A DNA stretch of 64,000 nt, taken from positions 1-64,000 of the forward strand of contig NZ_SSMQ01000045.1 in the NCBI RefSeq assembly GCF_005144585.1, written 5' to 3'. A program made the position numbers and the translations under genes. Source of the stretch: Polyangium fumosum (lineage in GTDB: Bacteria; Myxococcota_A; Polyangia; Polyangiales; Polyangiaceae). Below the pieces are notes generated by a model. That model had not been told where the DNA came from, ran no database searches, and worked only from the letters and a program-made list of their open reading frames with translations. Of the stretch, positions 1-53,438 are shown one piece after another; positions within the stretch are counted from its first letter, which is position 1; every line of letters starts with the position of its first letter.

Positions 1-106
1 GTGGAAGAACTGCGCGGAGCGCAGTTCTTCCACCCTCGGTCCAGGCCGTGCCTGGTCCGGGTCCCGGGGCGGACAGCCCCGGGTGGGGTCTGGGGCAACG
101 CCCCAG
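1..106 (+). repeat. Three-stem structured intergenic element, copy A
   Basis: The element opens with a perfect 14-bp hairpin (1-14 with 20-33, 5-nt loop). Three short hairpins follow: 41-46/50-55, 63-69/77-83 (7-nt loop containing GGACA) and 90-96/100-106 (3-nt loop). A second copy lies at 51111-51214. The linker TCCGGGT, the 7/7 and 7/3 stem/loop sizes and the 6-nt spacer before the last stem are the same in both, while paired bases differ in a compensatory way. It lies just past the 3' end of the minus-strand HEAT-repeat gene. It may extend beyond the left edge. The function is unknown; a bidirectional terminator or a mobile RNA/DNA repeat is possible. Confidence 0.75.
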
Positions 107-22827: not shown

Positions 22828-25283
22828 GGGAGGGATTGGTGCCCGATTCGGACAAGCTCGTCGTCCTCAACGCCGTGCTCCGCGTGGCGGCTCGTCACCC
22901 GAGCCTGCTCGCGCCGGCCGCGTTCGAGGACCTCTCGCGCACGCTCGCGGCGCACCTCTCGTTCGCCTCCATCGCCGTGCTCCTGCCCGACGACGAGGAA
23001 CACCAGCGCTTCTACACCGACAACGCCGATCCGAACCTGCCTGGCAACGTCCGCTTCGGCGCCCGCATCCCCTTCGATCCGAGCTTCTACCAGCGCGTCT
23101 ACGTCGAGGTGCGGCCGTACATTTGCGACGACACGCGCCTCGGCAACGAGATCGAGCGCTCCGTCGGCGAGGCCGGCTACCGGTCCTACGTAGCCGCGCC
23201 CGTGCGCTCGCCGGACGGCAAGCGCGCGCTCGCCACGTTCACCATGACCTTCGCGGAGCCGGGCGCCGCGAGCCGCGCGCCCGTCGATCTGATCGAGGAG
23301 ATCGGGGACATCTTCGGCGCGAGCATCGAGCGTTCGCTCCGGTCCGCGCGGGAGCGCAGGCTCGCGATGATCCTCGACACCTCGGGGGACGCGATGCTCG
23401 CGTGGGATCGCAGCGGCCGCGTCACCGACGCGAACCGCGCCGCGCTCGCGCTCACGGGCCACACGCGCGAGGCGCTCATCGGCCAAAACATCGGCTCGCT
23501 CCTCGATCCCGAGCCCGATCCGGCCGTGGGGCTGCCCGAGCCCGACGCGCGCCTCGTCCTCGTCGCGCGCACGCCCGAAGGCGAAGCGCGCCGGCTGCCC
23601 GTGGCCGTGACGATCACGGCCGTGGAGGACGATCCGCTCGTCGCTTGCCACGCGCTCCTGCGTGATCTCTCGGCGTGGGAGGCGAGCGAGCACGAGGTGG
23701 TCGCGCACCTCGCGCGTATTCGTGAGCTCGAAGAGCAACACCGCACGCTGCTCGACAACGCTCCGCTCGTGATCTTCCGGCTCGATCCGAGGACGCTCGA
23801 GCTCGTGTACCTGAACCACTGCGCCGAGCGGCTGCTCGGCGTCCCGCTCGACGAGGCGCTCGCCACGCCGGGGTTCTTGTGCGGCGTGCACGTCGATCAG
23901 GAGGGCGCCGCCGCGTACGACGAGGCCGTCCTCCGGGCCCGCGCGGGCATGCGCTCCTCGCCCTACGAGGCCCGCCTCGCGCGCCGCGGCGCGCACGCCA
24001 TCACCGCGCGCGGCACGATCTATCCGCTCGTCGGCAAGGGCGGCGAGGTCGTCGCGATCGAGGGCCTCTTCATGGACGTGAGCGTCGAGCACGCCGCGCG
24101 CACGCGCCTCATCCAGGCCGATCGCCTCTCCACGCTCGGCACGCTCGCGGCCGGCGTCGCGCACGAGATCAACAACCCCGCCGCGTTCATCTTGCTCGGC
24201 ATCGACATGATGGCGCGCATGCTCGACGGCCCCGGCGTCGATCTCGGCCCGACCGTCTCCGAGCAGGTGCACCACATGCTCGGCGAGCTGCGCGACTCGA
24301 CGCGCCGCATCGTCGACATCGTCCGCGACCTCCGCATGTTCGCGCGCGCGCCGGCCGGCACCCGCCGCATCGCGGTCGACGTGAACCGCACGGTGGAGAG
24401 CGCGCTCTCGCTCACGCGGGGCCAGATCATCGAGCGTGCGCGGATCGTCCGCGACCTCGGCGACGTGCCGCCCGTCATCATCGACGAGGGCCGGCTCGGG
24501 CAGGTGCTCGTGAACCTGCTCGTCAACGCATCCCAGGCGATCCCGCGCAACGCGCCCGGCGAGCCCGCCGTGACGGTCACGACGCGCAGCGAGGATCCAC
24601 GCACGGTGGAGATCGAGGTGCGCGACACGGGCGTGGGGATCTCGCCGGAGATCCTCGATCGGATCTGGGATCCCTTCTTCACCACGAAGGAGCCTGGCGC
24701 GGGCACGGGGCTCGGCCTCTCGATCAGCCGTGAGATCATCGAGCGCAGCGGCGGCCGCATCTACGTCGAGAGCCCCATCGAGGCCGAAGCGCCGCCGCGC
24801 GGCGCGCGTTTCGTGATCGTCTTGCCCGCCGCGGGCCGAGGCGACTCGTCAATCCCGCCGATGCCCTCGACGCCGCCGCGCTCGATCAAGAGCGGCGTGC
24901 GTGTGCTCGTGGTCGAGGACGAGGCGCCGCTCGCGCGTGCTCTTGCCGAGGAGATCGGTCGGGTGCACGAGGTCTCCGTGGCGGGCGGGGCGCAGGGCGC
25001 GATGGAGGCCCTTTTGGTGCAGCGGTTCGACGTGATCCTCTGTGATCTCCGGATGCCGGGGATGAGCGGCGAGGCGTTTTACGAGAAGGTCGCCGCAGAC
25101 AAACCCGACGTCGCGAAGCGATTCGTGTTCATGACGGGTGTGGGCTTCGGCGCCGACGTGGAGCGGTTCCTCGCGGAGTCGGGGCGGCCGGTGCTCGAAA
25201 AGCCGTTTTCGGCGGAGGATGCGCTCGCGGTGATCCAGAAGGTCGTCACGCGGCACGGGCGGGCGCCGCTGCCGGCGCGGTGA
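22824..25283 (+). CDS. Hybrid sensor histidine kinase (GAF-PAS-PAS-HisKA-HATPase-REC)
   Basis: The 819-residue soluble protein has an N-terminal GAF-like domain (LVVLNAVLRVAARHP to IERSLRSARERR), two PAS domains (DTSGDAMLAWDRSGRVTDAN; DNAPLVIFRLDP), and a HisKA with phospho-acceptor His447 in AAGVAHEINNPAAF. The HATPase has N, G1 and G2 boxes (LVNLLVNASQAI, DTGVGISPE, GTGLGLSIS). The C-terminal receiver has Asp741 in ILCDLRMPG. It lacks membrane segments, so the signal is cytoplasmic or relayed. The ATG overlaps the protease stop (ATGA). An in-frame GTG at 22839, preceded by GGGAGGG, is a strong alternative start. Confidence 0.92.
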   Translation: MREGLVPDSDKLVVLNAVLRVAARHPSLLAPAAFEDLSRTLAAHLSFASIAVLLPDDEEHQRFYTDNADPNLPGNVRFGARIPFDPSFYQRVYVEVRPYICDDTRLGNEIERSVGEAGYRSYVAAPVRSPDGKRALATFTMTFAEPGAASRAPVDLIEEIGDIFGASIERSLRSARERRLAMILDTSGDAMLAWDRSGRVTDANRAALALTGHTREALIGQNIGSLLDPEPDPAVGLPEPDARLVLVARTPEGEARRLPVAVTITAVEDDPLVACHALLRDLSAWEASEHEVVAHLARIRELEEQHRTLLDNAPLVIFRLDPRTLELVYLNHCAERLLGVPLDEALATPGFLCGVHVDQEGAAAYDEAVLRARAGMRSSPYEARLARRGAHAITARGTIYPLVGKGGEVVAIEGLFMDVSVEHAARTRLIQADRLSTLGTLAAGVAHEINNPAAFILLGIDMMARMLDGPGVDLGPTVSEQVHHMLGELRDSTRRIVDIVRDLRMFARAPAGTRRIAVDVNRTVESALSLTRGQIIERARIVRDLGDVPPVIIDEGRLGQVLVNLLVNASQAIPRNAPGEPAVTVTTRSEDPRTVEIEVRDTGVGISPEILDRIWDPFFTTKEPGAGTGLGLSISREIIERSGGRIYVESPIEAEAPPRGARFVIVLPAAGRGDSSIPPMPSTPPRSIKSGVRVLVVEDEAPLARALAEEIGRVHEVSVAGGAQGAMEALLVQRFDVILCDLRMPGMSGEAFYEKVAADKPDVAKRFVFMTGVGFGADVERFLAESGRPVLEKPFSAEDALAVIQKVVTRHGRAPLPAR

Positions 25284-25997
25284 TCAGCCGCCGGAGGTGG
25301 CTCCAGGTGACGGGGCCTTTCCGGCTGGCTGCATCGCCTCCAGCGTGTCGAGGTACCCGAACACCTTGGCTTCGAGGTCCCGGGGCAGCGCCGGGTTTTT
25401 CTTGATCTCGCGGACCAGATCGTCTCGCAGGCGCCCGAGCAATCCGACGGCCGACGAACGGAGCTGAGCGGCCTGTTTCCGGGCGGCTTTGGGCACGTCG
25501 GCGCGATCGCTCAGGGTGAGGTGGATCTGCTCGCCGGCGTCAAGGAATCCTTTGGTTGTTTCGAGCAACGTGCCGCCGTCCGCGAGGGGGAAACGTTCGA
25601 GGTCGGCTTTCATGGAGACGAGCAGGGATTTTCGTTCGAGGGCGCGCTCGGCTTGGACGGCATAGGAGGCGCCGAGCTCGGCCATTTGGGGAATAAACGC
25701 GGCGCGGATCCGCTCGGCAGCGGCGACGGTTTGGGGGCTCGCGCCGGGCAGTCGCAGATACACCTCGGTCGTGAAGTAAATGGCGGCGCCGAATCCGTCG
25801 TGTGTGTCGTTGAGCGTGTCCAGCGTCGCCGCGTGGGGCGCGCCCCCGGTGAGCGCGGGCGGGAGCGCCTCGATCGTGGCGAGCTGCTCTTCGAGCTGGG
25901 CTTCGTAGTAGGCGCCGGCCTTCGAGAGGACGAGGTCCGGGCGGCGCTTGTCGAGCAGGTCCCGGAGGCCGAGCTTGATGGAGGTGAGGGTCCACAT
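25284..25997 (-). CDS. Unrecognised helical protein beside NTPase island
   Basis: I do not recognise this 237-residue protein. It is almost entirely helical, with no signal peptide or membrane segment. It starts with MWTLTSIKLGLRDLLDKRR, has a conserved-looking middle (DTHDGFGAAIYFTTEVYLRLPG), charged long helices (AERALERKSLLVSMKADLERF) and a flexible Pro/Gly tail. Its stop codon abuts the stop of the convergent histidine kinase (TGA|TCA at 25281-25286). Upstream it diverges from the P-loop NTPase pair across 346 bp, which suggests possible shared control. A reading frame runs on upstream as Pro/Arg-rich low-complexity sequence and is rejected as coding. Confidence 0.7.
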   Translation of the reverse strand: MWTLTSIKLGLRDLLDKRRPDLVLSKAGAYYEAQLEEQLATIEALPPALTGGAPHAATLDTLNDTHDGFGAAIYFTTEVYLRLPGASPQTVAAAERIRAAFIPQMAELGASYAVQAERALERKSLLVSMKADLERFPLADGGTLLETTKGFLDAGEQIHLTLSDRADVPKAARKQAAQLRSSAVGLLGRLRDDLVREIKKNPALPRDLEAKVFGYLDTLEAMQPAGKAPSPGATSGG

Positions 25998-26343
25998 GGG
26001 GCGGGAGTGTAAGTGAAGTGTGTGGGACGGACACCGGAAGATGAGGTCGACGGCATGCTCGGGCGAGCTGGGGTCGCTTGGGGGTGCGGTCGGCCGTGCA
26101 GGTGGGCGCGTCGGGGCAGGGTGGGGGAGCGGTGGACCGTAGGAGGGAGCGAGTCGGGGCAGGATGGGGGCGCGGTGGACGGCAGGAGGGAGCGAGTCGG
26201 GGCAGGGGGCGGGGGCGATCGACGGGGCGGGGGAGCGGCTCGGGGTTGCCGTCGGGTGCGGCTTGTGGCGCGGGCGGGCGGGTCGGGGGGACCTCGGAAG
26301 GTGGACGTCCTTGGATCGACCCGCTAGCGTTCGCGCACGGATC
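25998..26343. other. G-rich divergent intergenic region
   Basis: This 346-bp spacer separates two divergent transcripts. The plus strand is strongly G-rich, with many runs of three to six G, and holds the 43-bp tandem repeat described separately. The composition gives long but non-credible Pro/Arg reading frames. G-quadruplex formation on the plus strand is possible. No consensus promoter could be picked. Confidence 0.6.
26110..26206 (+). repeat. 43-bp tandem repeat, two units plus partial
   Basis: GTCGGGGCAGG recurs at 26110, 26153 and 26196, exactly 43 bp apart. Between these anchors the two units share GCGGTGGAC and AGGAGGGAGCGA with only a few substitutions. It lies upstream of both divergent genes of the NTPase island. 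Confidence 0.85.
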
Positions 26344-27630
26344 ATGGAACAGCCCGATCTTCGCGTGGTGCAGAAAGCGCTTTTCCAGGCGCTGCGTGAT
26401 CGCCCGCTCGATTTGCTCGACGAGGCGGACCGCAAGCTCTACGAGCCGCTGCACGACGACGATCACGACCCTGTTCGGCGGCTGTTCGACAACATCGAGT
26501 TCAGCGAGAACGAGAGCGTCCAGCTCGTCGCTGGCTTTCGCGGGACGGGCAAGACGACGGAGTTCTCTCGCCTCGAAAGGGATCTGTGGGAGGCGGGGTA
26601 TTTCGTGATCCGGGTCGACCTGGACGAGTACCTTGACATGCACTCGGCGGTCGACATTCGTGATTTCCTGCTGATCATGGCGGGCGCGATCAGCGACAGG
26701 CTGACGGATGAGAGGTTGCTCGGTGTCAACGAGGGCTTGAAAAAGGGCTTCTGGGAGCGCGTGCGGGACCTCGTTCCCGGTGGGGTTGAGGTCAAGGAGT
26801 CCGCGGTCAAGACGCCGGTGGGGGACTTGAAGCTCGCGTTCCGGAGCGACCCGTCCTTCCGCGAACGGGTCCGCACGGCATTCACCGGCCGGCTCGCCGA
26901 GCTGGTCGAGCAGGTGCGGGCGCATCATGCCGAGGTGCTCAAGGCCCTCGCGAAGCGCGCGGGCAAAGCGGTGAAGCTGGTGGTGATCCTGGATTCCCTC
27001 GAGCACCTCCGCGGGACGTTCGAGAGGGCCGAGGGCGTGCGGCGCAGCGTGGAGGAGCTGTTTTTCACGCATGCGGCCCAAATCGGCCTGCCGAACACGC
27101 ACATGGTGATGAGCGTGCCCGCCTTTCTGGTGCTCCAGGGCGATAACCTCCCGGCGCAATTCGTCAATGGTGCCGTCCAGGCGTGGCCGGCTTATCGTGT
27201 CACGAGTCGCGCCGGAGTACGTACGGCCGTGGTGGACCGGATGATCTCGCTGGTGAGCAAGCGCGGTGACTGGCGCCGGATCCTGCCGGACCAGCAGGCG
27301 CTCGAAAAGCTCATTCTAGCTTCCGGCGGACACCTGCGGGATCTCCTCAATATGCTCATTGAGGCGATCCACCTCGCGGGAAAGGGCGTGAGCCTTGAGG
27401 CGGCCGATAAGATCGTGAATGTCGCGCGGCGCGCGTATATGCCTCTCTACAAGGACGAGATCGGCGTTTTGCGTCGAATTGCCGAGAAGCGAGACGTCCG
27501 GGAGATCAATACCGACGAGCAGGAATATCTCCTGCGGTTCCTCGATTCGGGGCTCGTGCTTTGTTACATGAACGACGACTTCTGGTACGACGTTCACCCG
27601 CTCGTGCGTGACGTCGTGCGCACTCCATGA
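26344..27630 (+). CDS. P-loop NTPase of a candidate conflict/signalling pair
   Basis: The 428-residue cytoplasmic ATPase has Walker A GFRGTGKTTE (Gly64 to Thr72) and Walker B VVILDSLEH (Asp217). The layout is that of AAA/STAND-type NTPases: a leader helix, the P-loop, then VIRVDLDEYLDMHSAVDIRDFL, a helical lid and a C-terminal winged-helix-like part (EQEYLLRFLDSGLVLCYM). The Asp after Walker B is Ser-Leu-Glu-His rather than Asp-Glu, which fits STAND-like proteins. It overlaps the next gene by ATGA. Base composition is less GC-biased than in the flanking housekeeping genes. The link to conflict systems is inference from family resemblance and gene pairing. Confidence 0.8.
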   Translation: MEQPDLRVVQKALFQALRDRPLDLLDEADRKLYEPLHDDDHDPVRRLFDNIEFSENESVQLVAGFRGTGKTTEFSRLERDLWEAGYFVIRVDLDEYLDMHSAVDIRDFLLIMAGAISDRLTDERLLGVNEGLKKGFWERVRDLVPGGVEVKESAVKTPVGDLKLAFRSDPSFRERVRTAFTGRLAELVEQVRAHHAEVLKALAKRAGKAVKLVVILDSLEHLRGTFERAEGVRRSVEELFFTHAAQIGLPNTHMVMSVPAFLVLQGDNLPAQFVNGAVQAWPAYRVTSRAGVRTAVVDRMISLVSKRGDWRRILPDQQALEKLILASGGHLRDLLNMLIEAIHLAGKGVSLEAADKIVNVARRAYMPLYKDEIGVLRRIAEKRDVREINTDEQEYLLRFLDSGLVLCYMNDDFWYDVHPLVRDVVRTP

Positions 27631-29270
27631 GCCCCGAAGAGGAGGAGGCGCGCGAGCGGCTCCTTTTCCACCTGGAGAACCAGACAGGGTTCTGGTTCGG
27701 GTTGGTCGTGGGGGATGATCCGCGCCCGCGTGCGCGGCTTTGTGAGGCGGCGGCGGCCTGGTGCAAGGAGCATGGCCGGGCTTTTGTGTTGCACGAGCCG
27801 GAGCCCGATGGTCTCGTTCAGCTCGCGGTGGAGCTGGCCCGTGGCGATAGCCCCGGGGTGCACTGGATCGTCGCGGATGGGGTGCGGGGGCTCGTCGATG
27901 TCTGGAACGCGGGTGCCACGCAGATGCTCATGGCGATGAACGAGCGCCGGGAAGCGTATCGGAAACGGCTCGATGGGGGGATCGTGGTGGAGGGGCGCTC
28001 GTCCTTGAAGCGCATCCTGCGAGAAATGGCGCCGGATCTGTTCTCGATCCGTGCGTTCATCGCCGAGCCGGGGGAGGAGCCCAAAGCGGCATCGACCGAC
28101 CTGCCTGAATGGCAGGAACCATTTTCGTTGGCGTCGATGGTGTCTGCGGACGACGTGGATCCCGATCTTGCACTCGCGCGGCTGGAGCGGCTCACGATGT
28201 TCGAAGCTCTCGCAACGACGGAGGACTGGATCGATGCGGAACTGGGGGCGACGACGAGCCTCTACAACACAGCTCGTTATGACGAGGCGGAGCGGGTTGC
28301 GCGTGACCTTCTTTCGAGGCTCGAAGCCAGTTCCGTCGAACCCGAGAAATACGCGTACCAGCGAGCGCAGGCTTGCGTCATTCTGGCCCGGATCCGCATC
28401 CTCCGCGCAGACGACACGAACGAGGCGCTAGACTTCTGGGCCGAGGCACTTCGACTTCTGGAGGCACATTCTGCACGCGAACCGGACGACGCGCTTGGAT
28501 GCATGCTGCTCACGACACGCATTGCCGAGGAGCAAGCCGGGCTGTTCGTTCGCATGGGTGAGCCTTACGCGGCAATACAGAGTTTGTTTGCCTATGTTGA
28601 ATTAATCCTACCGGAGTCGGTCGTCGACTTGCTGCCAGAGATGCAGACCGACCTGATGGGGGTCTATGTCAGGCTTGCTGGTTTATTGGCCAAACATAAA
28701 GACCTCGACGGAGCAGAGAGCACGCTTCGGAAAGCCGCGTTGATTATCCAGGAATGTGCGTCCCGGCACGGGGAAGACCCGCGATGGGAATTCGAACGCC
28801 TGCGAAATTCCGTGATGTTGGGCCAGGTCCAACTCGCGAAAAAGGATAGGGGGTCCGCCGCCCAAACGCTGGTGGCCGTCGCTGCTCTTGCGAAGAAGCT
28901 GGAGTCGTACGGCGAGATGCGGTCTCCTTGGCGAAATGTGCTTGAGCGGTTCTACCTGGATCTCGCCAGGGTACTCTCGTTCCAGGTGAAATACTCGGAT
29001 GCGGTGGACCGCGTTCGCGTGCGTGCCCTTTCAAACTTGACACGACAGTTCGAGCGAACGCCGGACAACGTGAAGCTCGGCTGGGTGCTCGCCCAATGCC
29101 ATCTCAAGCGCGCCATGCTCCTCGAAAAGGAAGACGTCGAGGGCGCAAAAGATTCTGCCCAGCAGGCCCTGGAACTCGTCGCACGGCTGCCGGTTGAATC
29201 TGACGCAGAGGCGAATCTCAAAGGCAAGATCGAAGCCCTCCGCGCCTTCGTACGGAAGCCCGGGGAGTAA
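27627..29270 (+). CDS. Degenerate NTPase-TPR partner protein
   Basis: The 547-residue protein has an N-terminal domain (about 1-155) that reads like a P-loop NTPase without its nucleotide site. FGLVVGDDPRPRARLCEAAAAW stands where a Walker A would be, HWIVADGV where a Walker B would be, followed by the ERREAYRKRLDGGIVVEGRSSL and APDLFSIRAF pattern seen in inactive STAND domains. About 350 residues of TPR-like helices follow (YNTARYDEAERVARDLL; LAKHKDLDGAESTLRKAAL). The start overlaps the NTPase stop (ATGA). The stretch 28560-28760 is clearly AT-richer than its surroundings, which suggests transfer. The inactive-STAND call is from pattern, not search. Confidence 0.75.
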   Translation: MSPEEEEARERLLFHLENQTGFWFGLVVGDDPRPRARLCEAAAAWCKEHGRAFVLHEPEPDGLVQLAVELARGDSPGVHWIVADGVRGLVDVWNAGATQMLMAMNERREAYRKRLDGGIVVEGRSSLKRILREMAPDLFSIRAFIAEPGEEPKAASTDLPEWQEPFSLASMVSADDVDPDLALARLERLTMFEALATTEDWIDAELGATTSLYNTARYDEAERVARDLLSRLEASSVEPEKYAYQRAQACVILARIRILRADDTNEALDFWAEALRLLEAHSAREPDDALGCMLLTTRIAEEQAGLFVRMGEPYAAIQSLFAYVELILPESVVDLLPEMQTDLMGVYVRLAGLLAKHKDLDGAESTLRKAALIIQECASRHGEDPRWEFERLRNSVMLGQVQLAKKDRGSAAQTLVAVAALAKKLESYGEMRSPWRNVLERFYLDLARVLSFQVKYSDAVDRVRVRALSNLTRQFERTPDNVKLGWVLAQCHLKRAMLLEKEDVEGAKDSAQQALELVARLPVESDAEANLKGKIEALRAFVRKPGE

Positions 29271-29291
29271 CGCCGCCCGAAGAAGCGCTGA

Positions 29292-30551
29292 CTACCGGGC
29301 GCCCATCTCCTCCCACAACGCCGCATCCCCCAGCGCCGCGCCCCGCTCCGCGTCCGCTCTCGCCTCGTCCGCGCGCCCCATCCGCAAAAGCGCCCGCCCT
29401 CGCCAGACGAACGCCGTCGCGTATTCGGGATCCAGCGCCATCGAGCGCTCCGCGTCCGCGATACACGCCTCGTCGTCCCCTTGATCGAAAAACGCCTCGG
29501 CCCGGTTCGAGAGCACCCGCGCCGCCTCGGGATCGAGCTCCAGCGAGCTCGTGTAATCGGCGATCGCCCCCGCCACGTCGCCCACGAGGTGCCGCGCGAT
29601 CCCGCGGGTATCGAACGCGTCCGCGTCCGGCTCCAGGTAAATCGCCCACGACGCGTCCGTGATCGCCCGATCGAGCTCGCCCGCTTCGAGCCACGCCGTC
29701 GCGCTCGATCGATACGCCCCCGCGATCGCCGCCGCGTCCCGCACGCCCCACGTCCACGCCCGCGCCTGCGCCGCGTCCGCGAGCGCGTCCGCGATCCGCT
29801 CCTCTTCGAGCGCCTGCAGCGCCGAATCCGCGTGCACGTTCACCTGCTCGATCCGCGTCTCCTCCGGCGCGGCGAGCACCGTCGATTCGAGCCGGCTCAT
29901 GAACCGCGGCGACTCGCCACCTTCGTCGAACGTGTAAAACACGGGCTCGTCCTCGACCGTGAACACCGGCATGTCGTGCGCGACCGCGAAGGCCAGCGCC
30001 GCGAGGCCGAAGGCGTGGGTCTCCGGCAAGACCGAGACGAGCCGCCCGAGCGGCGTGTCCGGATCGAAGAGCCGATCGAGAAGCTCCTCCGTCTCCTCTG
30101 CCTGCAAAAATTCGAGCGAGAGTGACGTCTCTCCAGGCAGGGCCGCCTGGATCGTCGCGAGCAACGCGCCCCATTCGTCTTTGCGCAGCTCCCACACGAA
30201 GGGGAGGGACCAGCGCACGCGCGCGCCGTCATGGCCCTCATCGCGCAGCACACGGATGTGCACGTCCGCTTGCCGCAGCCTCGCGAGCAGGTGGCCGAGG
30301 ACGAGGTCGAGGTCCGCCGTGGAGGGCAGGGTGACGAGGTCCTCGCCGTAAGGCAGAAAGAGCTGCGGCGCGGCCTCGCCGAGCTCCGCGAGGAAGGCGT
30401 CCTCCTCGTCGAGTGGCGCGCCCTCCTCGTCGACGAGCTCGAAGCGCGGCGCGCAGAACATCCGCCCGACCCCGAGGACGTGCGCGAGGAGCGGGAACGT
30501 CGCGAAGCTCCGGTACTCGAAATCCGCGTCACCGATGAGGAAATGGCCCAT
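29292..30551 (-). CDS. TPR protein
   Basis: The 419-residue protein lacks a signal peptide. The first 230 residues form an unrecognised alpha/beta domain (MGHFLIGDADFEYRSFATFPLLAHVLG; LPETHAFGLAALAFAVAHDMPVF). The C-terminal part is four to five TPRs (DAFDTRGIARHLVGDVAGAIADYTSSLELDPE and similar). It is acidic and probably cytoplasmic. It converges on the NTPase-TPR pair with 21 bp between stops and diverges from the giant kinase gene. Its codon use is typical of the window, unlike the adjacent island. Confidence 0.75.
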   Translation of the reverse strand: MGHFLIGDADFEYRSFATFPLLAHVLGVGRMFCAPRFELVDEEGAPLDEEDAFLAELGEAAPQLFLPYGEDLVTLPSTADLDLVLGHLLARLRQADVHIRVLRDEGHDGARVRWSLPFVWELRKDEWGALLATIQAALPGETSLSLEFLQAEETEELLDRLFDPDTPLGRLVSVLPETHAFGLAALAFAVAHDMPVFTVEDEPVFYTFDEGGESPRFMSRLESTVLAAPEETRIEQVNVHADSALQALEEERIADALADAAQARAWTWGVRDAAAIAGAYRSSATAWLEAGELDRAITDASWAIYLEPDADAFDTRGIARHLVGDVAGAIADYTSSLELDPEAARVLSNRAEAFFDQGDDEACIADAERSMALDPEYATAFVWRGRALLRMGRADEARADAERGAALGDAALWEEMGAR

Positions 30552-40092: not shown

Positions 40093-40217
40093 CAGCCTGT
40101 GGACTTATCTGCTGCGCGCCCCGAATCGTCGGTCGACATCGCTCGAAATCCTTCAGGATTCCTCGCTCCGTCGCCCTAGCTTCGGGGCGCTCGCGACGAT
40201 AATTCCACAGGCTGCTA
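40090..40217. repeat. 128-bp foldback element containing two convergent stop codons
   Basis: The ends form an 18-bp inverted repeat with 16 matches (40090-40107 and 40200-40217; core CAGCCTGTGGA/TCCACAGGCTG perfect). Inside is a second perfect 10-bp pair (GCGCCCCGAA 40116-40125, TTCGGGGCGC 40181-40190). A third 5-bp hairpin (40147-40151/40156-40160) lies in the centre. The first three bases are the ruvX TAA and the last three are the minus-strand kinase TAG, so the element exactly fills the space between the two coding regions. It may act as a bidirectional terminator or be a MITE/REP-like insertion. Confidence 0.85.
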
Positions 40218-41876
40218 AGCGGCCTTCTTGTTGTCGTCGAGCATCAGGTGCGCCACCAGCGCCGCGATGAACGCGATGACGAGCAGGAGCACGTCCCACA
40301 CGGGCCACGCCACGCCGACCGCGCGCCGGAGCAGCACCGACTCGATGAGCCGCACGAGCATCGCGCCGAACCCATAGGAGCAGAGGCCCACGACCACGGG
40401 GCGACGCAGGCGCCCGAGCATCTCGATCGCCTTGACCGTGTTGTCCCAGACCGTCTTCCGGATGTGGCGGATCAGCAGGATGATGGGCGTCGCGAGCGCG
40501 ACCGGGATGAGGAGCAGGAGCAGGACGGACTCCGAGACGGTCAGGTTCGCCGTCGCGCCGCCGCCGCGCGTGATGCGGAAGATGGACGCCGCGGTCGTGA
40601 TGAGGCCGCCGAGCGTGAAGAAGACGCCGAGCGCCATCATGAGCACGAGCATCGGCCGCGCCATCGTGGCCTCTTGCTGCTGCTTGATGAAGAGGGCCGA
40701 CGGGCGCGCCGCGGTCCCGGTCGCGGTCGGATCGCCGATCGGGACCATCGCGGCGCTGGCCGGCTCCTCCGTGTCCCAGGCCGCGAGATCGGCGTCGAGC
40801 TCGGCCATGCTCTGGTGACGATCGTCCGGCTCCTTGGCCATCGCCCGCTGGATGACCATCTCCAGCGTCTCGGGGATGCTCGGCTCGAGCGAGCGCGGAC
40901 GCGGCGGATCCTCGGAGAGCACGGCCATGAGCGTCGCGGCCGGGTCGCCGTTGTCGAACGGGCGCTTGCCCGTGAGGGCGCAGTAGAGCATCGCGCCCAC
41001 GGCGTAGATGTCGGCGCGGTGGTCGACGCGGTGACCACGTGCTTGTTCGGGCGCCATGTACGAGGGCGTGCCCATGATCATCCCGGTGCGGGTGAGGGCC
41101 TTGCCCGTGGCGTTGTCCTCGACCTTCGAGATGCCGAAGTCGATCACCTTCGCCATCGGGCGGTTCAGGTCGCCGATGAGGAAGACGTTCTCCGGCTTCA
41201 TGTCGCGATGCACGACGCCCTTCGCGTGCGCGGCGGCGAGGGCCTTGCAGACCTGGCGGACGATGCGCACGGCCGGCGCCACGGTCATCTTGCCCCGCTG
41301 CGTGAGCAGGTCGGCGAACTCCTTGCCGTCGAGCAGCTCACTGATGATGAAGGGACGTCCGTCGGCTGTGCGATCGATGTCGTAGACGTCGATGACGTGC
41401 GGGTTCTTGATCTGCGCAGCGGCCTCGGCCTCGCGCTGGAAGCGGGAGAGCACGTCGGCCTGACGCGCGTACTCCGGGTGCAGCATCTTGATGGCGAAGC
41501 GCTTCGAGCCGATGCGCGTGTGGCGCGCCTCGTAGACGCGGCCCATGCCGCCTTCGCCGATCACGCGGACGATGGTGTACGACTCGCGCAGGGTCTGGCC
41601 GACGAGCTCGTCCCGCGTCTCCTCCGCGAGCTCGGCACCGTCCTTCGGGCAGATTTTGTACTCGCCCGGGTAGCGGCTGTTGCACGTCGGGCAGATGCGC
41701 TCCGGGGCGGCGACGCCTGCGACGAACGAGTCGGCCGATCCGTATCCGGTGGCCGCGGAGCCGATCCCGGTGAGGTTCGTCGTCGCGGGTCCCACGACGA
41801 TCGACGGCTGCGCCGACGAGGACGCAGCCATAAGGGGAGAAGCCCCCGAATCGGGGGGCCGAACATTACCGGCCAT
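40215..41876 (-). CDS. Membrane Ser/Thr kinase with zinc ribbon
   Basis: The protein is 553 residues from the chosen ATG. An N-terminal low-complexity segment is followed by a zinc-ribbon-like CPTCNSRYPGEYKICPKDG. A complete Hanks kinase follows (IGEGGMGRVYEA, FAIKML, VVHRDMKPENVFL, DFGISKVE, GTPSYMAPEQARG). The C-terminal part has about four hydrophobic segments (MLVLMMALGVFFTLGG; VLLLLLIPVALATPIILL), so it is membrane-anchored with no obvious extracellular sensor. ATG at 41831 is an alternative start, and neither has a clear Shine-Dalgarno. It diverges from rpsO and converges with ruvX at the foldback element. Confidence 0.9.
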   Translation of the reverse strand: MAGNVRPPDSGASPLMAASSSAQPSIVVGPATTNLTGIGSAATGYGSADSFVAGVAAPERICPTCNSRYPGEYKICPKDGAELAEETRDELVGQTLRESYTIVRVIGEGGMGRVYEARHTRIGSKRFAIKMLHPEYARQADVLSRFQREAEAAAQIKNPHVIDVYDIDRTADGRPFIISELLDGKEFADLLTQRGKMTVAPAVRIVRQVCKALAAAHAKGVVHRDMKPENVFLIGDLNRPMAKVIDFGISKVEDNATGKALTRTGMIMGTPSYMAPEQARGHRVDHRADIYAVGAMLYCALTGKRPFDNGDPAATLMAVLSEDPPRPRSLEPSIPETLEMVIQRAMAKEPDDRHQSMAELDADLAAWDTEEPASAAMVPIGDPTATGTAARPSALFIKQQQEATMARPMLVLMMALGVFFTLGGLITTAASIFRITRGGGATANLTVSESVLLLLLIPVALATPIILLIRHIRKTVWDNTVKAIEMLGRLRRPVVVGLCSYGFGAMLVRLIESVLLRRAVGVAWPVWDVLLLVIAFIAALVAHLMLDDNKKAA

Positions 41877-41963
41877 CGCGAGGCAGACTAGCGGAAGTCG
41901 GCTTCCCGAGGGGGACAATCCCGCTGCAAACCTTGCTCGTCCGCCCGTGGGCAACACGGTCCG

Positions 41964-50057: not shown

Positions 50058-51104
50058 ATGACGGCGCGACCTCGTCTGCAGCGGGCTTTGCCCGGCGGGC
50101 TTCGGTTCGGGCGGGACCGCCGCGGCCCCAGGGCCAAAGGGTGCGTTTCGTTCGGCCGCGTGGCGCTCGCCGCAGCGACGGGCCTCGTGTTCGCCTTCGT
50201 GTCCCGAGCCGCGCGCGCGGACGATTTGCAGCAGTTCGAACTCGGCAAGACGCGCTTCGACGCGGCCGAGTACGACGAGGCGGCCTCGCGTTTCACGGCG
50301 ATGCTCGATCCGGCGCAGAAGCCTTGCGAGTCTGTCCCGACGAGCGGCACCGCGCCGTGTCGCCTCACGGACACGGACCTCATCCAGCGCGCGCGCACGC
50401 TCCGCGCGGCCTCGCTCGTCGCGCTCAAGCGTTACGACGAGGCTGAGGCCGAGATTGCCACGATCCTCCGGCAAAACCCGACGTATTCGCCCGACCCCGC
50501 GGTCTTCCCGCAGGAGGTCGTGGATCGCTTCACGCTCGTGCGGGGTCGCTTGCGCCAGGAGCTCGACGTGGCGGAGCAGAAGCGCGCCGAGGAGGAGCGG
50601 CAGCGGCGCATCGCGGAGCAGAAGGCGAAGGAGGAGGAAAAACGCTGGATCGAGTCGCTCGTGAAGGCGGCCTCCGAGCGGCAGATCGTCATGCAGAATT
50701 CGCGCATCGTCGCGGCGATGCCGTTTGGCATTGGCCAGTTTCAGAACGGCAGCAAGAAGCTCGGCTGGACCTTCGCCATCACGCAGGCGTTCACGGGCGC
50801 GACGTCGATCGTCGCGTCGCAGGTCTTCAACTACTACGCGAGCTTCGATCAGACGATCGCGACGGGCGCCGAGCGCGAGGAGCTCGTGCGTCGCCAGCAG
50901 ATCACGCTGATCATCAACCAGGTCGCGTTCGGCCTATGGGCTGGGCTCACGGTCGCGGGCATCGTGCAGGCGCAGATCGCCTACGTGCCGCAAAAGGTCA
51001 CGATCGAAAAACGCCCCGTGCCGCCGCGCCCTGCGGTGCGCGTCGTGCCGACGGTGGCGGTGACGCCCGACGGGTTTGGCGTGGGCGTCATCGGCGCGTT
51101 CTGA
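50058..51104 (+). CDS. Exported TPR-like membrane protein
   Basis: The 348-residue protein has a basic N-region and signal (about 30-55, ending RAARADD). A TPR-like helical part follows (FELGKTRFDAAEYDEAASRFTAML; KRYDEAEAEIATILRQNPTY), then a charged coiled coil (QKRAEEERQRRIAEQKAKEEEKR). The C-terminal region has two hydrophobic segments (GWTFAITQAFTGATSIVA; ITLIINQVAFGLWAGLTVAGI). The architecture suggests an envelope protein that binds partners on the periplasmic side. Function is unknown. The gene ends just before structured element copy B. Confidence 0.75.
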   Translation: MTARPRLQRALPGGLRFGRDRRGPRAKGCVSFGRVALAAATGLVFAFVSRAARADDLQQFELGKTRFDAAEYDEAASRFTAMLDPAQKPCESVPTSGTAPCRLTDTDLIQRARTLRAASLVALKRYDEAEAEIATILRQNPTYSPDPAVFPQEVVDRFTLVRGRLRQELDVAEQKRAEEERQRRIAEQKAKEEEKRWIESLVKAASERQIVMQNSRIVAAMPFGIGQFQNGSKKLGWTFAITQAFTGATSIVASQVFNYYASFDQTIATGAEREELVRRQQITLIINQVAFGLWAGLTVAGIVQAQIAYVPQKVTIEKRPVPPRPAVRVVPTVAVTPDGFGVGVIGAF

Positions 51105-51110
51105 AGCGCC

Positions 51111-51214
51111 TTTGCATCGACCACATCGTGGTCGATGCACCAAAGGTCCAGGGCTGGCCCTGGTCCGGGTCGAGGGGTGGACAACCCCTCGTCGGGTCCG
51201 GGGTGAAACCCCGG
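51111..51214 (+). repeat. Three-stem structured intergenic element, copy B
   Basis: A perfect 12-bp hairpin (51113-51124/51128-51139) is extended by CTTT/AAAG around it. It is followed by stems 51148-51153/51158-51163, 51171-51177/51185-51191 and 51198-51204/51208-51214. The second of these has a 7-nt loop with GGACA, and the third a GAA loop. Linkers and sizes match copy A at 1-106, with compensatory pair changes. It sits between convergent genes, 10 bp from the minus-strand stop. Confidence 0.8.
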
Positions 51215-51224
51215 CGCTACGCTT

Positions 51225-51857
51225 TCAGGTGCTGCGGCTGCTCGTCGGCCTCACACCGGGAGGGCCGTCGTTGTGCTCGCGGCAGCCGGTGCGCGACATC
51301 ATCTTTGCGCGGAACGACACGCGACCGCACGTGTCGCAGACGCAGAGGTTCTGGTCGTAGAGGTTGCGGTTCGAAAGGATGTCGGCGGCGAAGAGGCTGA
51401 GGACGATGTCGCTCAGCGAGTCTTCCTTTTGCGGCCGCGCGATCCACGAGGCCTTCGTGCCGATGCCGATGGGCTGCACGCGGCTCGACTTCGTGGCGAG
51501 CTCGAGGAAGCCGTCTTCGGGTGGATCCGTGATGAGTCCGCGCAACGTGAAGACGACACGCGACCGTGCGCGGCCGAGGATTCGATCGAGCAGCGCTTTC
51601 GTCGCGGAGGGCGGCGCGCCCACGGTGTTCAGCGTGTCGAGCAGCAGCGTGCCTGCCATCGGCTCGGCGACTTGGACGGGGCGCTGCATGCGACCTGCGC
51701 GCACGAGGTACTCCTCGATCCAGGTCTTGAGCTCCCGCGCGCCCATGGCCCCGATGCCGACACCCTCGACGAACGCAAGCGCGCCGATGAGCGCGCCGCG
51801 GTCGTTGTCCGCGCCGGTGAGGAGGGTCGGGATCGAGCTCGTGGACGTAGGAGGCAT
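51225..51857 (-). CDS. Hypothetical protein with C-terminal zinc motif
   Basis: I do not recognise this 210-residue cytoplasmic protein. The N-terminal part is helical (VEGVGIGAMGARELKTWIEEYL). The middle includes a domain with VVFTLRGLITDPPEDGFLELA. The C-terminus has CVCDTCGRVSFRAKMMSRTGC-REH, a likely treble-clef or ribbon zinc site. The ATG has AAAGGA six bases upstream. A zinc site close to the C-terminus suggests nucleic-acid or protein binding. Confidence 0.7.
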   Translation of the reverse strand: MPPTSTSSIPTLLTGADNDRGALIGALAFVEGVGIGAMGARELKTWIEEYLVRAGRMQRPVQVAEPMAGTLLLDTLNTVGAPPSATKALLDRILGRARSRVVFTLRGLITDPPEDGFLELATKSSRVQPIGIGTKASWIARPQKEDSLSDIVLSLFAADILSNRNLYDQNLCVCDTCGRVSFRAKMMSRTGCREHNDGPPGVRPTSSRST

Positions 51858-51994
51858 CGCGGGTCCTTTCAGCGACGACGGGCGCTCGGAGGGGGCCCTG
51901 CAACGTGCAGTATCGCTCTGCTTCGCGGCGGGGCCAACATCGACGCCGGGGAGCGGGGGTCCACCTGCACGATGCGCGAATCCTCGAAGGCCAC

Positions 51995-52020
51995 GATGAT
52001 CAAAAATATCAGTGATTTCC
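51995..52020. promoter_or_regulatory. AT-rich patch upstream of zinc-motif gene
   Basis: Within the 194-bp spacer 51858-52051 there is a short AT-rich stretch with an inverted repeat (ATCA ... TGAT around AAAATATCAG). This is unusual in such GC-rich DNA. It could be a promoter or operator for the minus-strand zinc-motif gene. No clear -35/-10 pair was found. Confidence 0.3.
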
Positions 52021-52051
52021 GACCCGAACAACAGGGACGAGGGGCACCCGC

Positions 52052-52813
<762 letters not shown>

Positions 52814-52940
52814 CCCGGCCGGTTGTAGCCCAACGCGGGCGTGATCGCAGCCCCGACGGCGTGCAGCGGGGCGTGACGCCTCGCGCCGTCGGCCCTATGG
52901 ACAGGTCACCGCCGAACGGGCGGCCGGACAGGAGACGACC

Positions 52941-53438
52941 ATGAAGCCCGGCGATCACCCCGACTTTTACAGGCTCGCGCCCCCGCCGGGCACGTCGCGC
53001 GAGAGTACGATCGTGCTCGATCGCGAGGGTCGCTTCTGGCACGACGGCGCGCGCGTGGACCACCCTGCGCTCGAAGAGGCGCTCCATCGCTGGATCGCGC
53101 GGCACCCCGAGGATGGGCGGCTCATCCTGACGAACGGCTACGACTGGTGTTACTTCCGCGCCGAGGAGACGCCGTTCGTCGTGCGCTTCGTCCGCGTCGA
53201 GGACGAGGGCCGCGGGGCGCTCCTCGTGCTCTCGGATGGCACGGAGGAGCGGCTCGATCCGCGCGTGCTCTCGGTGTCGAGTGACGGTGTGGTGTTCGCG
53301 CGGGTCAAGGAGGGCGCGGAGGACGCGCGGTTCTCGCGGCACGCGCAGGCCGGCCTCGCGCCGCTGCTCGTGTCGGCGGAGCCTCCGATCGTGCGCGTGG
53401 GCGACGTGTCCGCGGAGCTCTCGGAGCGCGCGGTCTAG
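52941..53438 (+). CDS. DUF1285-like protein
   Basis: The 165-residue cytoplasmic protein starts DFYRLAPPPGTSRESTIVLDREGRFWHDGARVDHPALEEALHRWI. It continues with LILTNGYDWCYFRAEETPFVVRFV, a layout close to DUF1285, a two-domain beta fold of unknown role. The ATG has AGGAG six bases upstream. Its TAG stop shares the four bases CTAG (53435-53438) with the stop of the convergent TamB-like gene. Confidence 0.7.
   Translation: MKPGDHPDFYRLAPPPGTSRESTIVLDREGRFWHDGARVDHPALEEALHRWIARHPEDGRLILTNGYDWCYFRAEETPFVVRFVRVEDEGRGALLVLSDGTEERLDPRVLSVSSDGVVFARVKEGAEDARFSRHAQAGLAPLLVSAEPPIVRVGDVSAELSERAV

Follow-up and report, generated by a model that had tools for sequence, protein, structure and literature searches.

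A candidate mobile repeat at gene ends in Polyangium with a strand-specific fold of four hairpins and a pseudoknot

The stretch analysed here (the window) comprises the first 64,000 nt of Polyangium fumosum contig NZ_SSMQ01000045.1 and opens directly with a structured repeat, copy A (1-106), while a second repeat, copy B, occupies 51111-51214; both were present at the positions given in an earlier note on this DNA. Just to the right of copy A ends a minus-strand gene with a HEAT-repeat match (128-1138, stop codon at 128-130). Copy B lies between a plus-strand open reading frame at 50058-51104, which closes with a TGA stop at 51102-51104, and a minus-strand open reading frame at 51225-53342, whose stop codon is at 51225-51227. 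When the window was searched with a 27-nt core pattern allowing up to three mismatches, we obtained two matches, both of them exact, compared with a mean of 0.00 in 100 shuffles, and the covariance model R1 matched copies A and B alone. Elsewhere in the window we observed an insertion of ~120 bp at 40093-40215 that is missing there from five congeners; bounded by inverted ends (CAGCCTGTGGA.../...TCCACAGGCTG) with flanking CTAA and situated at the stop end of a minus-strand open reading frame (40215-41957), it is a different, MITE-like element. For a block of ~3-4 kb (~25280-29320), those five congeners show no alignable counterpart at the corresponding position.

Read on the plus strand, copy A consists of hairpin I (1-33), a perfect 15-bp palindrome with a 3-nt loop that belongs to the GGAAGAACTGCGC family known from the halves of inverted pairs; stem II (41-46/50-55, within 38-58), which is followed by the linker UCC (56-58); stem III (63-70/76-83) with the loop GGACA (71-75); and stem IV (90-96/100-106) with its loop at 97-99. 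Copy B, on the same strand, presents hairpin I at 51114-51138 (an 11-bp palindrome with a 3-nt loop, GCATCGACC family), stem II at 51148-51153/51158-51163 (within 51145-51166) with the linker UCC at 51164-51166, stem III at 51171-51178/51184-51191 with the loop GGACA at 51179-51183, and stem IV at 51198-51204/51208-51214 with its loop at 51205-51207. The three bases after stem II pair with the first three of loop III, so that UCC and GGA form the 5' and 3' strands of an H-type pseudoknot (56-58/71-73 in A; 51164-51166/51179-51181 in B). Where the earlier note described three stems, we count four hairpins and a pseudoknot; its 7-nt loop III is 5 nt long, and its 7-bp stem III has an eighth pair (63-83 in A, 51171-51191 in B), the column of which covaries weakly (112 CG, 4 GC and 2 unpaired among 118 distinct copies). 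The five paired differences that it named between A and B all proved correct when we re-read the sequence, and hairpin I is palindromic as it claimed, although not freely variable, falling instead into a few sequence families.

Because copy A begins at the contig edge, its left part is missing. The full element of copy B would extend over ~51101-51228 and include an outer stem (51101-51108/51220-51228) that would enclose both flanking stop codons; its left arm, CTGAAGCG, holds the TGA of the plus-strand frame and its right arm, CGCTTTCAG, the stop of the minus-strand frame. Plain folding of B as a 116-nt piece paired part of stem II with part of stem IV, and folding of the 128-nt full element recovered the four hairpins. 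Compared with shuffled sequences, pieces of A and B folded more stably whichever strand was used (z -6.0 to -7.1).

These two copies belong to a large family of interspersed repeats. Model R1 gave at least 150 matches in the window's own genome (G000), confirming that further copies exist there, and found matches in all six Polyangium genomes searched, namely G000 and five congeners (G001-G005). Of the 39 genomes in total, the 33 from other genera yielded no R1 match, with up to 124 first-look candidates scored in each, and among the genomes searched the repeat has so far been found only in Polyangium, a genus of soil bacteria. Among named records with an exact core, the matches listed (80 rows, 96 stretches) all came from Polyangium sp. 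6x1, 15x6 and y55x31, a listing that says nothing about absence elsewhere; loci of G000 and its congeners had a median identity of 89.9% to these records over 88 aligned pieces of at least 1 kb, which suggests that all six genomes belong to this genus. The two-contig congener G004 carries 99 modules in a 1.6-Mb sample that was chosen partly where matches were already known, which at 75 nt per module make up ~0.5% of its length, with no modules in the 0.2 Mb of this sample at 1.0-1.2 Mb. Scaling from the positions of the best 150 matches suggests a few hundred modules per genome. We rejected a known RNA family, as the window gave no Rfam match at the gathering threshold and positions 1-400 gave sub-threshold matches only. 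A viral origin was likewise rejected, since viral contigs scanned with one pattern gave 0 exact matches. A search of the literature by title and start of abstract returned no description of a comparable repeat in myxobacteria, Polyangium included, a result that falls short of proof of absence.

Evidence that the fold matters comes from covariation across 118 distinct copies, drawn from the best 150 of 172 matches (a further alignment used the best 150 of 161), in which 99.8% of pair cells are standard. Taking related copies as independent, we counted 305 double-change cells compared with 102.8 +/- 6.7 in column shuffles and obtained a covariation score of 0.285 compared with 0.106 +/- 0.005, neither value being reached by any of 500 shuffles; with the partners slid by 1-3 columns, the score was at most 0.038. 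Two weaker, coarser measures gave 10 pairs with a double change (8.3 shuffled, reached in 11/500) and 19 further pair types (18.0 shuffled, reached in 148/500), and in a 21-row alignment, where 99.2% of cells pair, the same two measures were reached by 125 and 488 of 500 shuffles. The alignment was fitted to the stems of the model, from which the pseudoknot is absent. The earlier proposals that the stems covary across copies and that selection acts on structure are thereby supported, with covariation above both the shuffled and the slid controls. Some copies carry additional parts: a second hairpin (TGGGGCGTAGCTCGGCTTGCCGAGC...) lies inside stem III at L001, L008 and locus A of G001 (L260), and composite copies in which hairpin I and stem II units recur, split by CAAAGGGGGGCGGACAG and a TTTCCCC stretch, were seen at L124 (4897-5346) and L012 (1156-1575).

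The pseudoknot pairs follow the same rule. Among the 153 cores that could be parsed out of 157 distinct ones, the linker and loop triples were UCC/GGA in 125, UUC/GAA in 26 and one U.G away in 2, with 0 violations, and an exact search across the genus for linkers beginning with a base other than U gave 16 matches, every one of a single sequence type that combines a CGC linker with a GCG loop. Double changes thus occur at pseudoknot pairs 1 and 2, at pair 2 in two ways (CG, UA, GC), and pair 3 is always C-G. We then considered one-sided changes in 327 distinct cores, a set without five cores that hold inserts or insertion-sequence junctions, cores below 66 nt and identical rows, and observed 17 G.U against 2 A.C together with 13 other mismatches; the bias toward G.U has p = 0.0007 if rows are independent, which they are only partly. 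Because G.U outnumbers A.C in this way, the folded strand is the plus strand, as the earlier note wrote it. The best reading of these data is that the fold is kept under selection as one strand.

Modules occur in two main forms. The 62 elements in the 1.6-Mb sample of G004 comprise 31 -+ pairs, 2 -+-+ arrays and 29 solos in which a partner was not detected, with no +- arrangement; about half are therefore inverted pairs, in which stem IV faces outward. Twelve of the 29 solos have a GCATCGACC-type hairpin I, as in copy B, and the best-preserved solos of this type bear outer arms akin to GAGGGTGTTCCACAG, whose pairing joins the four hairpins in a single multi-way junction. Ends like GAGGGTGTTCCACAG were present on both sides in 7/86 solos and in 0 after shuffling. 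Permutation indicated that the outer flanks are complementary in a locus-specific manner (p = 0.003 for pairs, p = 0.007 for solos), and for pairs this was gone 50 nt further out (p = 0.50); the complementarity arises in part because the flanks hold transposon-end remnants.

An insertion sequence of 1504 bp in G004 is bounded by CTGAGCATNGGTCTCATC-like ends and contains an open frame of 481 codons that encodes a Tn5-like transposase, with Pfam matches to Tnp_DNA_bind, DDE_Tnp_1 and Dimer_Tnp_Tn5. Tn5 itself belongs to the IS4 group. On reading, the insertion sequence bears no relation to the modules. After removal of two duplicates from the 74 pairs scored, 10 of 72 distinct pairs have CTGAGCATNGGTCTCATC-like ends on both sides and 20 have at least one strong Tn5-like end, compared with 0 in shuffles; the remaining 52 have no end that scores at least 10 of 18 against the Tn5-like end. 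Target duplications, counted by eye, were a perfect 9 or 10 bp in five of the ten both-end pairs (L014, L030, L094, L100 and L114) and matched at 8 of 9 positions in L024, with none visible in the other four. A subset of pairs are hence probably MITEs with the ends and the 9-10 bp target duplications of the Tn5-like insertion sequence.

The insertion sequence also lands in the modules. In G000, 13 of the 15 contig-end junctions of the insertion sequence that we fetched lie inside modules, 11 in stem II and 2 in stem III (that at L239 counted by eye), and ~27 contig-end junctions in all are countable by position; in G004, one of two copies in 1.2 Mb sits in a module with the duplication GGCACGGCC. 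The single wide pair that we read out holds a Tn5-like element inside stem II. No autonomous element with two modules flanking a gene was noticed among the matches listed for G000 and the modules of G004. PF01609 has six matches in G000. Mobilisation by a RAYT or IS200 enzyme was rejected on the grounds that the sole Y1_Tnp match in G000, an IS200-type match of 152 aa, has ends unlike the repeat. In 390 modules, moreover, a GTAG foot is not conserved, the minus-strand foot before stem IV varying among GTAG, GTCG, GGAG, CCGC and others.

By the calls of a home-made gene finder, every one of the 62 G004 elements is intergenic and 0 lie inside genes, 30 being between convergent, 31 between tandem and 1 between divergent genes. 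When compared with the 1199 gene pairs called (219 convergent, 759 tandem and 221 divergent), these figures represent an excess at convergent pairs (p = 6e-8) and a deficit at divergent ones (p = 1e-4). Measured from the edge of the modelled core, a stop codon lies within 100 bp in 56 of the 61 elements that have a flanking stop, at a median of 18 bp, and the position just past a stop that had been reported for copies A and B extends to the family. Among solos between tandem genes, 7 lie sense and 11 antisense; this lack of a sense bias makes it less likely that they act in cis on the gene upstream. Neither A nor B has a T-run after stem IV, and the arrangement of an intrinsic terminator, a hairpin followed by a U-tract, is absent from both copies.

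On a larger scale, the best 150 matches in G004 avoid the origin, with 1 observed and 37 expected within 1.65 Mb of dnaA, a cut-off picked afterwards (whole-range KS p = 1e-17). A hand tally of GCATCGACC-type modules at 30 of 31 sites gave 9+/5- below 6 Mb and 3+/13- above, a split with p = 0.02 when the 6.0-Mb boundary is chosen afterwards and p = 0.13 with a symmetric terminus. GC skew in the stretches sampled stays largely positive as far as 6.1 Mb and has turned negative at 7.9-8.1 Mb, the change of sign falling somewhere in between. The orientation split is possibly a weak, post-hoc hint of coupling to replication.

Comparison among species shows loci that differ in the presence or form of their modules. 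Five species (G000, G002, G003, G004 and G005) have an element at locus B; G001 has none, and its two convergent stops lie 10 bp apart. L061 and L089 likewise hold an element in G000 but not in G004; target duplication was not seen at the three empty sites read (B, L061 and L089). Locus A has modules in all six species, in forms that differ: an inverted pair in G004, G005 and G003 (the left half cut by a contig edge in the last), of which copy A represents the right half; in G002, a pair to which a further unit is added; in G001, one module alone, in the opposite orientation; and in G000, only the half that the contig contains. At two further sites, L128 and L102, a solo in one species corresponds to a pair in another. 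The G004 sites matched to L098 and L111 have a C-rich hairpin (CCCCTCCCCC...GGGAGAGGGG and similar) at a gene end without a module.

We favour, with a probability of roughly 0.55, the interpretation that this repeat is a non-autonomous, REPIN/MITE-like mobile element with a strand-specific RNA-like fold and a predicted RNA role at 3' ends. A module of ~105 nt, the plus strand of which would fold into hairpins I-IV with the H-type pseudoknot, would be mobilised in pairs and in trans by a transposase of the Tn5-like kind, and such transposases probably moved the pairs that we observe. Insertions would survive mainly at gene ends, and the plus-strand fold, where it forms part of the 3' portion of a transcript, would act as RNA, most likely as a nuclease-resistant, transcription-hindering 3' end, a role that would keep the fold under selection. 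We prefer an RNA role at transcript 3' ends to its main rival, recognition of single-stranded DNA; the 3' placement by itself could also arise from selection against insertion elsewhere.

In that rival, the fold would be selected as single-stranded DNA or as a cruciform for a putative mobility enzyme, comparable to REP hairpins and RAYT, and would have no RNA role. A strand-specific fold, an inverted-pair architecture (31 -+ and 2 -+-+ but 0 +-) and the lack of sense bias relative to genes are all consistent with such recognition, as are the REPIN precedent in excerpts of PMC3116915 and the weak post-hoc hint from GCATCGACC-type orientation by chromosome part (9+/5- vs 3+/13-). However, the only Y1 match of G000 is the 152-aa IS200-type one with unrelated ends, the GTAG foot is not conserved, and the pairs with intact ends carry Tn5-like 9-10 bp duplications, which indicate a mechanism on double-stranded DNA; we regard this explanation as possible though unlikely. 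It appears improbable that the host has adopted the module as a bidirectional terminator or mRNA 3'-end module kept at chosen gene ends. The median distance of 18 bp from a stop, the strong convergent bias, the near-absence from divergent promoters and the occupation of locus A in all six species, in differing forms, would suit such adoption, whereas the missing U-tract after stem IV in A and B and the clean absence from other loci in some species would not, and 3' placement would also follow if insertions simply avoided promoters and genes.

Two further explanations concern how the module spreads and why its palindromes persist. It is very improbable, in our estimation, that the module is a self-contained pseudoknotted RNA and itself the mobile replicator, a bacterial counterpart of SINEs that would use an RNA intermediate and a putative enzyme and settle at gene 3' ends; the Tn5-like element would then be no more than a carrier and parasite that came later. 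Least probable of all is passenger status, in which the module would ride in Tn5-like MITEs, gene conversion or inverted duplication between copies would alone maintain its palindromes, and its fold would be unselected. The exchange of forms at the same site, pair against solo between species, and the many near-identical copies would be expected of a passenger; yet the strands of the pseudoknot are not arms of any one hairpin and still change in a matching manner, and copying alone would not yield 17 G.U against 2 A.C among the one-sided changes.

Among small bacterial repeats of this sort, REPs are the best known; they are short palindromes and are often tied to RAYT enzymes. As judged in G004, the Polyangium repeat is of REP type in being a high-copy intergenic palindromic unit that occurs as singlets and inverted doublets. 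Excerpts of PMC3116915, PMC1525189 and PMC3733652 describe REP, BIME and REPIN sequences in the same terms, as high-copy intergenic palindromes that lie mostly between convergent or same-direction genes, form singlets and inverted doublets and serve as landing sites for insertion sequences, and 3' placement is also reported for REPs in the excerpted PMC3733652. Unlike the 20-40 bp palindrome of a REP, the Polyangium unit has ~105 nt with four hairpins and a pseudoknot, and unlike the REP/REPIN-RAYT systems it has no conserved GTAG tag and no RAYT found in G000. Its resemblance to Tn5/IS50-like (IS4 group) MITEs lies in the 10/72 pairs with CTGAGCATNGGTCTCATC-like ends on both sides, 5 of them with perfect 9-10 bp duplications; in contrast to such MITEs, most pairs are without recognisable ends, and the interior of a pair is two strand-specific structured modules rather than a recognisable deletion derivative of an insertion sequence. 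According to excerpts of PMC1525189, ISPpu9, ISPpu10, ISPa11, ISPsy8, ISRm19 and ISRm22 use a repeat palindrome as landing site, whereas the landing site of the Tn5-like element here is stem II or III within a pseudoknotted module.

The pseudoknot, the inverted pairs and the transposon link were missing from the earlier note and are added here. Polyangium carries many copies of a repeat for which G000 yielded no RAYT and whose pseudoknotted fold is selected on one strand, together with a Tn5-like insertion sequence that has a marked preference for this structured repeat. Since each genome offers many natural replicates at gene ends, the question of whether the repeat is a DNA target or an RNA device is directly testable.
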